Of a stretch of DNA of 64,000 bases, positions 32,097-54,499 are shown piece by piece. Location: contig NZ_JPUX01000001.1 in assembly GCF_000738675.1 (NCBI RefSeq), positions 3,534,001 through 3,598,000 on the forward strand. Direction: 5' to 3'. The notes beneath the pieces were generated by a model, which was not told the origin of the DNA, searched no databases, and saw nothing but the letters and a program-made list of their open reading frames with translations. This DNA is from Serratia nematodiphila DZ0503SBS1. Its GTDB lineage: Bacteria > Pseudomonadota > Gammaproteobacteria > Enterobacterales > Enterobacteriaceae. The translations under genes and the position numbers were made by a program. Positions within the stretch are counted from its first letter, which is position 1, and every line of letters starts with the position of its first letter.

Positions 32097-32264
32097 GGAG
32101 AGGCTCCTGGAGCATGGAGGAATATTCCCATTCAGTATAGCCAACGCCGTAGTGGGCGCCGAAAGTGATGAAACGCGCGCCAATGCGCATTTAGCGTGCA
32201 AATACTGCCCGCTTAAATGACGCGTTTGGGAGAAATCTGCAGTATCGTAGCCGCCACGTTTTAT

Positions 32265-32289
32265 CAGATTTCACGTAGCGCGATCAAAA
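32265..32289 (-). repeat. Polar 25-bp repeat, left copy
   Basis: On the - strand it reads TTTTGATCGCGCTACG then TGAAATCTG, one base different from the two + strand copies at 33355 and 54475. Weaker similarity (an AAAATCCC-like block) continues about 14 bp beyond the core. It sits 544 bp left of the dif centre, just upstream of a truncated GrpB gene. Not palindromic. Unidentified. Confidence 0.85.
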
Positions 32290-32367
32290 AAGCAGGGGAT
32301 TTTTGGCCAATATCGGCAGGTATGCGCCATTGGAAACCATGCCCGGTCATCATTATTGGAGTGGAAA

Positions 32368-32709
32368 ATGTCAGCGCGCATCATCACGATCCCAACGATT
32401 GATATATTGCTGGAGGTTGAAAGTCTGCCGGCGTTGGATAGCTTGAATGACAGGATGCGTGACATGGGATATACGCCGCGTGGCGAGAACGGCATTGCCG
32501 GCAGGCGTTACGACATCAAGGGAAACGGCAAACGCACGCATCACGTGCATGCATTTATTGCGGGAAGTGAACAGGCGATCGGGCATTTGGCGTTCAGAGA
32601 TTATCTGCGCAAGCATCATGGTGTTGCTCAGCAATACGCGGCAATCAAATACCAGGCAGCAGAAGACTGCCGGCAAAACCCAGCGGCTTATGGCCGGTTG
32701 AAAAACTAA
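32368..32709 (+). pseudogene. Truncated GrpB-family (UPF0157) protein gene
   Basis: A 113-residue open frame matching only the middle of the nucleotidyltransferase-like GrpB family: TIDILLEVESLPALDSLND, MRDMGYTPRGENGIAGRRYD, GKRTHHVHAF and HLAFRDYLRKHHGVAQQYA. The usual N-terminal block (the HIGSTAVPGL-type motif) is missing, and the protein ends soon after AAYGRLKN without the normal GK tail. The ATG at 32368 has GGAG 8 bp upstream, so a short product may still be made. The 25-bp repeat lies 80 bp upstream, close to where the missing 5' end should be. Confidence 0.6.
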
Positions 32710-32806
32710 TTTATTCAACGGCACGAGCAGTTGGCGCTGGCCTGGTTGGCCACAGAAGAAACCCCATGAATCAGGCCTGGACGCATAATCTACATACCCG
32801 CACTTA

Positions 32807-32834
32807 GGTGCGCATAATGTATATTATGTTAAAT
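32807..32834 (+). other. dif: dif: XerCD chromosome-dimer resolution site
   Basis: Starts GGTGCGCATAATG, continues TATATTATG and ends TTAAAT. This equals the 28-bp E. coli dif as I remember it at every position: XerC arm GGTGCGCATAA, 6-bp central region, XerD arm TTATGTTAAAT. The nearby matS sites and the orientation switch of KOPS octamers across it support the assignment. It marks the replication terminus of this chromosome. Confidence 0.95.
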
Positions 32835-32962
32835 TTAATCACTGGAGACGTACCGGGTTTAGCCCTGCACATTATCTCCCGCCTCACCTTCAACGCTATC
32901 CATCCCTCTGACATCCCGTTTTACCGCCAGGCTTACTGCCACTAGGCCGCTTTTAAATGCAA

Positions 32963-33343
32963 TCACTCATCAGTCGGCGTGCCTTGATGAAACCGCATTT
33001 GCCAACCTGCCTTGGCTGTCAGAAGCCAAATCGATGAACGTTCGGTGCAACGAACGGCGTGGCCCTGCGCATCACGCTGAAAACTTTTATACGTCAGCAA
33101 CACGGCGCCTTTGCTGATTTGCGCCAGCTTAAAACCTTCGGCAAAAATCTGCGGATGTTCAGTTTCCATTTCCAGCGCCGCAACGGTTTGGCGTTTGTCA
33201 TAACGCAGCCCTGAACGACCAATCTCTTCAAAGTCTTCATGCAGCAATGCCGCGACGCGCCGCGGATCGCGGCGCACCATTGGCCGATGCAGTTCAACTT
33301 CAAGCATCTGGATTAGATTCAGCAACTCTGCAAAACAGGTCAA
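32963..33343 (-). CDS. DUF4440 / SnoaL-like (NTF2-fold) protein
   Basis: A 126-residue cytoplasmic NTF2-like protein: LIQMLEVELHRPMVRRDPRRVAALLHEDFEEIGRSG, then YDKRQTVAALEME and a closing QMRFHQGTP. Such proteins bind small ligands in a cone-shaped pocket; function unknown. The only start in front of the fold is a TTG at 33343. An internal ATG at 33307 would cut the first helix. The TTG lies in the AAAAT-like edge of the right copy of the polar repeat, so the original 5' end may have been altered. Confidence 0.75.
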   Translation of the reverse strand: MTCFAELLNLIQMLEVELHRPMVRRDPRRVAALLHEDFEEIGRSGLRYDKRQTVAALEMETEHPQIFAEGFKLAQISKGAVLLTYKSFQRDAQGHAVRCTERSSIWLLTAKAGWQMRFHQGTPTDE

Positions 33344-33354
33344 AATGCCCTCTT

Positions 33355-33379
33355 TTTTGATCGCGCTACGTAAAATCTG
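33355..33379 (+). repeat. Polar 25-bp repeat, right copy 1
   Basis: TTTTGATCGCGCTACG followed by TAAAATCTG on the + strand, preceded by AAAATGCCC. It is inverted relative to the copy at 32265, with its centre 547 bp right of the dif centre. Identical over the 25-bp core to the copy at 54475. Confidence 0.85.
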
Positions 33380-54474: not shown

Positions 54475-54499
54475 TTTTGATCGCGCTACGTAAAATCTG
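54475..54499 (+). repeat. Polar 25-bp repeat, right copy 2
   Basis: TTTTGATCGCGCTACG then TAAAATCTG, identical to the copy at 33355 in the 25-bp core and in the same orientation; preceded by CAAAAATCCC, which resembles the flank of the left copy. It lies 21.7 kb right of dif. Confidence 0.85.

Follow-up and report, generated by a model that had tools for sequence, protein, structure and literature searches.

A 55-bp dyad near dif in Serratia and other Enterobacterales, found also beside P1 loxP, plasmid recombinase genes and phage packaging genes

Introduction

dif, loxP and the resolution sites of plasmids are textbook systems that are regarded as self-sufficient or as dependent on ArgR/PepA or FtsK. 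The accessory sequences of cer and psi, two dimer-resolution sites of plasmids, work with PepA and either ArgR or ArcA. The site matS reads GTGACRNYGTCAC, and dispersed repeats of the REP/BIME type occur in many copies scattered over the genome.

The accessory sequences of cer and psi span about 200 bp and are adjacent to the XerC arm, matS is a 13-bp palindrome, and KOPS (GGGNAGGG) is frequent and skewed towards dif, according to the consulted sections of one account (PMC11724359), which also place P1 loxP opposite the P1 origin, with a KOPS bias. Purified Cre recombines loxP in vitro without other factors, and for P1 loxP-601 neither ArgR nor PepA gave a positive result in vitro (PMC2409434), which, as far as the in vitro reaction goes, argues against these two as binders of the element described here. 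A survey from 2009 characterized dif, in its consulted part, as having 'no apparent specific genetic environment' (PMC2731167). The consulted sections of PMC11724359 and PMC2731167 make no mention of such an element, and no description of it was found in the open-licence papers searched, either by sequence or by words.

The element was recognized in a 64-kb stretch of Serratia DNA (64,000 nucleotides, in the following the window), for which a preliminary description had reported a 25-bp motif flipping its direction at dif and had considered a fork trap, a protein-binding beacon for terminus handling or a small mobile element.

Results

All three copies of the 25-mer (32265-32289, - strand; 33355-33379, + strand; 54475-54499, + strand) were confirmed in the sequence with the positions and strands first reported. 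Beyond that report, a palindromic dyad element was recognized, of which the motif forms one half. The full element, GCTACGTRAAWTCTG-N25-CAGAWTTYACGTAGC, is 55 bp long, with inverted half-sites of 15 bp lying 40 bp apart from centre to centre. In the window the second half is worn or absent, and the motif first noted represents the strong half. The features around dif are:

32225..32279, - strand: left dyad element, with strong half 32265-32279, 25-bp centre 32240-32264 and partner half 32225-32239
32225-32239: degenerate partner half of the left element, reading CAGATTTCTCCCAAA on the - strand
32265..32289, - strand: left 25-bp motif as first noted, left of dif
32807..32834, + strand: dif, XerCD recombination site GGTGCGCATAATGTATATTATGTTAAAT, 28 letters identical to E. 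coli MG1655 (0 mismatches)
33355..33379, + strand: right motif copy, core half-site 33365-33379, 26.3 bits
33403..33417, + strand: possible weak partner of the right copy, uncertain, CAGATTTGAGTTGAT, gap 23 instead of 25, -7.1 bits
54475..54499, + strand: third copy, 21.7 kb right of dif with outward polarity, core half 54485-54499

The strong half of the left element reaches 28.2 of 28.2 bits, while its partner at gap 25 scores -2.5 bits, with 10 of 15 letters agreeing by eye; for the third copy, half-site scoring revealed no clear partner half. The centres of the left and right 25-mer copies are 544 and 546 bp off the dif centre. With up to 3 mismatches allowed, the 5.2-Mb genome contains exactly three copies of the 25-mer, each at most 22 kb from dif, compared to none in a control read backwards. 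Searches with the 15-mer remained near chance: allowing up to 3 mismatches, the window has 5 matches, against a mean of 2.8 in shuffled sequence (15 of 100 shuffles reaching 5), and allowing up to 2, the whole genome has 9 (7 in the control), so that only the three perfect 25-mer copies stand out.

Proteins flanking the three copies match the GrpB (partial profile), DUF4440, glyoxalase, FMN oxidoreductase and class-III aminotransferase families, the third copy being situated between the FMN oxidoreductase gene and the aminotransferase gene, and no recombinase is present among the eight scanned neighbours. The GrpB-family ORF (32356-32706, + strand, 117 aa), which separates dif from the left copy, lacks profile positions 1-42 and is perhaps a remnant. 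An Rfam scan of the window at gathering scores returned a fluoride riboswitch only (RF01734, 49916-49991, + strand, 43.5 bits) and no match at the motif copies. The same genome contains an open frame for Tus (G000:C1:3743214-3744107; PF05472, E 2e-132) about 176 kb from dif.

Within the genus Serratia, the 25-mer is present in 26 of 30 genomes, the four without it comprising three of 1.5-2.5 Mb and one of 3.6 Mb; dif could be located in 28 of the 30. From a total of 59 matches, 54 share a contig with dif, and all 54 are oriented outwards, a count which leaves out the five matches on other contigs (two on G002:C2, one each on G004:C1, G009:C2 and G012:C2). The flip of motif direction at dif therefore holds throughout these contigs, and in terms of the dyad this outward polarity corresponds to a strong half turned towards dif. 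Forty-two of the 54 matches are found within 3 kb of dif, and both flanks carry the motif in 14 of the 26 genomes, so that the genome-wide count and the other Serratia genomes alike bear out the placement around dif. Near copies lie 332-1588 bp from dif, and the symmetry that had been noted about dif, while correct here, is consequently limited to this and a few other genomes and does not apply in general. Eleven other genomes of the genus also have a distal copy, 23-79 kb from dif. Since a flanking box is common to the third copy of the window and nine of ten distal copies inspected (G016 differs), the third copy mostly represents a single inherited locus and adds no independent evidence. On a second contig in one genome we additionally observed a dif-like site with 3 mismatches (G002:C2:48269-48296), with motif copies 1.6 and 4.0 kb away.

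The spacing of the dyad was assessed on 167 distinct strong half-sites from all loci collected. With a partner threshold of at least 6 bits, an inverted partner was found at gap 25 for 68 of the 167, at gap 24 for 3, at gap 26 for 1 and anywhere else between gaps 0 and 60 for 2. The second half is usually weaker than the first, and the 25-bp centre favours T-N-N-C-N-G-N-N-A. Copies from different genomes and replicons have the half-sites in common, but not the centres and flanks. In 92 dyads, 16 of 48 departures in the strong half are mirrored in the weak half (shuffle mean 11.7, 180 of 2000 shuffles reaching 16), and 1068 of 1380 cells are identical between the arms (shuffle mean 1057, reached by 69 of 2000). 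The signal is weak at best for base pairing, and sequence kinship alone would produce such matching; with no pair-restoring covariation clearly above the shuffles the element is probably not a hairpin. A plasmid variant has a second half near CTCAATTTTTNAATCTCCGC (loci L214, L215, L216, L217, L218 and L101); it occurs on plasmids typed IncX4, IncX1, IncF and IncFII/IncR, with looser forms in L096-L098.

Across the GTDB order, the exact core was found at 79 sites in 44 of 295 genomes, with 1-7 copies per carrying genome and 5 sites in the backwards control. At least 41 of the 79 sites, from at least 26 genomes, reside on a contig bearing dif, counted among the dif matches listed; 26 of these 41 lie within 1 kb of dif, 30 within 5 kb and all 41 within 60 kb. 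A site within 1 kb of dif is present in 21 of the 26 genomes with core and listed dif on one contig, nearness being forced for those contigs that are short. The other 38 sites are on different contigs or in genomes without dif among the matches listed.

We additionally scored the 5 kb on either side of dif in 80 non-Serratia genomes from 17 GTDB families, which we chose from the listed dif matches, using a matrix to which sites from some of these genomes had contributed. In 25 of the 80 regions, spread over 8 families, a dyad scores 18 bits or more, and the same regions reversed contained no dyad of at least 16 bits. Of the 35 dyads, 32 lie no more than 1 kb from dif and the gap is 25 in 33; they occur on either side of dif, mostly 79-911 bp off, and the stronger half of the 31 asymmetric ones faces dif in 21 cases and points away in 10. 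No dyad reached the threshold in 55 regions, 3 of which hold a half-site only. Presence differs sharply by family, from 9/9 in f2 to 0/8 in f10, 0/5 in f25 and 0/7 in f27. Motif and dif share one locus in Bisgaard Taxon 45 (which we take to be pasteurellacean), Acerihabitans, Chimaeribacter, Edaphovirga and Winslowiella. In E. coli MG1655, there is no match of at least 9 bits in the 44 kb around dif. The strict dyad was found in 0 of 369 genomes of a class-wide sample, which shows only that strict dyads are uncommon outside the order, since just four of these genomes are from Enterobacterales and even G060, which has a mismatched dyad, fails the strict pattern. BLAST searches with N-spaced consensus strings returned nothing from E. 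coli genomes (nor, for the short one, from phages), the cores being too short to score, and the dif-centred part of the window matched one E. coli record, in an alignment of 34 bp. In family f27, pairs of oppositely oriented dif-like sites 0.4-1.4 kb apart were observed (G260:C36:72886/73314, G097:C8:41734/43131, G172:C1:2405236/2405901).

A Tus match is present in 70 of the 295 genomes. The five genomes of f25 that were examined encode Tus and lack a dyad at dif, and G237 has a dyad 79 bp from dif and no Tus match. The idea that the element takes the place of Tus was rejected, since both coexist and each occurs without the other.

In phage P1 the dyad is located at P1:118-172, between loxP and cre, with its centre 144 bp from the loxP centre, and overlaps the annotated P3cre promoter (104-129). 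The P1 element has matches in 809 of 5426 E. coli genomes, at 828 places on plasmids and 11 on chromosomes. Twelve of 13 Cre-type loci, which are partly non-independent (L100/L115, L225/L229 and the 90-kb contigs are close relatives), contain an inverted repeat with arms of 12-14 and a spacer of 6 or 8, its midpoint 107-159 bp from that of the dyad; L257 displays no lox-like repeat at threshold. The same search in nine loci not of Cre type gave just two weak inverted repeats near the element. Identity to P1 Cre is 42-44% for the six homologues compared. In the P1-like contig L254, with a homologue of 42% identity, the dyad occupies the corresponding place, and the lox-like repeat beside it is quite unlike loxP in sequence. 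The dyad is also found at Cre homologues of a Pantoea vagans plasmid (L100), of two genomes (L115, L116) and of a Mixta theicola contig (L058), all likewise 42-44% identical to P1 Cre. Cre-like recombinases with 25-43% identity to P1 Cre and the element upstream were seen in L058 (the Mixta contig), L116, L123 and L126; the L123 contig (G173:C2) carries dif too, about 30 kb off.

Other recombinases have the element as a neighbour as well, in several cases about 22-99 bp upstream of the gene. Ten neighbouring proteins scanned comprise nine tyrosine recombinases (PF00589) and one serine resolvase (PF00239, L124), a result that identifies families and gives no rate, as the ten were preselected as recombinase-like. 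The N-spaced consensus matches 180 plasmid records, and 27 of the 60 matches listed fall under a tyrosine recombinase or resolvase gene, a raw count in which many of the 27 are near-identical Serratia clones. The elements of pYV and of IncX4, IncX1 and IncFII/IncR plasmids are near partition genes as well, and several plasmid elements adjoin partition or other genes with no recombinase within the stretch inspected. Plasmid L099, which has a MobI(A/C) gene and was considered in view of the IncA/C recombination hot spot treated in the consulted part of PMC5587640, contains the motif with only a weak inverted repeat nearby. Plasmid elements were also seen about 0.3-1.4 kb from DinQ-like type I toxin genes (L216 4002 and 5041, L217 3001).

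In T7-like phages the strong half sits just 5' of the spanin gene 18.5, adjoining the small terminase gene, while the second half scores 2.6 bits in BA14 and -6.2 bits in T7, weak in both, and is absent from Sarma103. The BA14 stretch matches 626 phage records at E up to 10, of which 315 are Klebsiella phages; many of the matches span 19 bp only, at E around 4. In lambdoid-type (prophage) contigs the genes around the element, as named from sequence, are of endolysin, Rz-like and terminase type, and a Pfam scan of two proteins from these contigs found no family. We know of no dimer-resolution site in T7-like phages or lambdoid-type prophages. The T7 element stretch appears within a construct printed in the consulted part of PMC11863960. 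Matches in tail-fibre genes of T1-like phages (SECphi27) have no partner half and look like chance.

Discussion

The dyad is not terminus-specific, and a role at the terminus only is not supported, as the element also accompanies loxP, lox-like sites, plasmid recombinases and phage terminase regions. Of the ideas in the preliminary description, the protein-binding beacon fits best. Two inverted halves at a fixed spacing, few copies and a conserved place by the sites of unrelated recombinases are most simply explained by a protein site serving dimer resolution, and the dyad is quite possibly a protein-bound accessory site of dimer-resolution loci in Enterobacterales, the reading we tentatively prefer. 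Its sequence, fixed spacing and conservation, like its location by dif, P1 loxP, lox-like sites and recombinase genes, are seen directly; what we infer is its binding by a protein and an action on recombination or synapsis. The binder would be host-encoded, since unrelated replicons share the site. We propose a model in which a putative DNA-binding protein of Enterobacterales would bind the 55-bp dyad near dif, lox or a plasmid res site and would pair or wrap the two directly repeated copies on a dimer or, alternatively, tie them to the division machinery, with the outcome that recombination would resolve dimers instead of making them. Copies near the terminase and spanin genes of phages might provide the same service on concatemers or genome ends, which is a guess and the weakest step of the model.

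The fixed gap, the proximity to dif and loxP and the association with recombinase genes across divergent lox sites and Cre proteins argue for an accessory site. Arguing against it are the copies in T7-like and lambdoid phages, a class which a narrow role in dimer resolution does not fit, the dif regions free of a dyad, MG1655 without a match, the third window copy 21.7 kb from dif and the lack of a recombinase among the eight scanned neighbours of the window copies, in addition to plasmid elements by partition or other genes without a recombinase in the inspected stretch, the scarcity of inverted repeats at the nine loci not of Cre type and the self-sufficiency of Cre in vitro (PMC2409434). 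A wider reading, which we regard as possible and hold with less confidence, is that one host protein might read the dyad at XerCD-dif, Cre-lox, other tyrosine recombinases, serine resolvases and phage packaging genes, and might pair or license sister copies for genome monomerisation of chromosomes, plasmids and phages. If this is true, the shared host-read site would supply the missing regulator that makes Cre mainly a resolver in vivo. A conserved site by dif, and at near-constant distance from loxP and its distant homologues, predicts a further protein, and the element could be used as a marker for lox-like and other resolution sites.

Among the alternatives, a positioning beacon comparable to matS/MatP, whose bound protein would tether the terminus or plasmid to midcell or the divisome and help FtsK, survives best, although we consider it unlikely. 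It would fit the placement by dif and by P1 loxP, the latter being opposite the P1 origin with a KOPS bias (PMC11724359), but has to account for just 1-7 exact-core copies per carrying genome and for elements carried by a lytic phage and by an IncX4 plasmid of 39 kb.

An operator or promoter element governing neighbour genes such as recombinase or spanin genes appears less likely still. The position about 22-99 bp upstream of several recombinase genes, the overlap with P3cre of P1 and the placement directly before the 18.5 start in T7-like phages would be expected of such an element; however, the genes beside the three window copies are mutually unrelated and none is a recombinase, and elsewhere the distance to lox is kept as well as the distance to the gene.

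A Tus-independent fork trap or pausing site, marking where forks should end, is improbable in our view. The clustering of Serratia copies at the terminus with 54 of 54 outward, and the additional copies that some other genomes (e.g. G199) have as far as 54 kb from dif, prompt this explanation, yet full dyads are near-symmetric and therefore have little polarity, and 10 of 31 asymmetric dyads have the stronger half away from dif. In addition, the same genome already encodes Tus, and neither the P1 site, 144 bp from loxP, nor those of T7-like phages would be an obvious place for forks to end. Together with the dyad of G237, a genome without a Tus match, this speaks against the polar fork trap of the preliminary description.

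We regard an RNA or single-strand hairpin signal for priming, RNase III or translation control as very improbable: the element is an inverted repeat and precedes ribosome-binding sites in phages, but its arms lack clear covariation, the second arm is degenerate or missing in the window copies, and no Rfam match at gathering scores was obtained there. A mobile-element footprint or insertion target, as the small mobile element of the earlier proposal would be, is the least credible reading, since despite the occurrence on plasmids and phages only half-sites are common between replicons, with centres and flanks differing between genomes as well, the distance to lox is near-constant and the genome holds 3 copies.

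With these alternatives set behind the accessory site, the dyad can be compared to the known systems. It shares with the accessory sequences of cer and psi a position outside but next to the recombination core and a link to dimer resolution, being close beside dif in 32 of 35 dyads (within 1 kb) and accompanied by a lox-like repeat in 12 of 13 Cre-type loci. In contrast to them, it is not confined to one recombinase but is found by XerCD-dif, Cre-lox and other tyrosine and serine recombinases at varying distance and side, and instead of about 200 bp by the XerC arm we find dyads on either side of dif. Like matS/MatP, the dyad is a palindromic site in the terminus region, but its sequence is different (GTGACRNYGTCAC is absent from the consensus half-site and centre on inspection), it measures 55 instead of 13 bp, has very few copies and is also found by lox and plasmid recombinases. 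The terminus location and the strand switch at dif are features of Tus/Ter as of the Serratia motif, whereas the dyad is near-symmetric when complete and occurs with and without Tus: its presence does not follow the tus gene in the f25 genomes and G237, and its sequence, with stronger halves facing dif in 21 cases and away in 10, does not suggest a polar asymmetric site. KOPS/FtsK resembles the Serratia motif in orientation relative to dif; the dyad, however, is rare, long and palindromic while KOPS is the 8-mer GGGNAGGG, which on inspection is not in the 25-mer, the motif having 3 copies in this genome. The scatter of REP/BIME repeats is likewise not found, with 3 copies all within 22 kb. As Ter, matS, KOPS, REP and cer-type sites each differ from the dyad in a tested feature, the initial impression that the motif is none of the first four stands, and we rate the dyad as a new element and not a member of any of these five classes.
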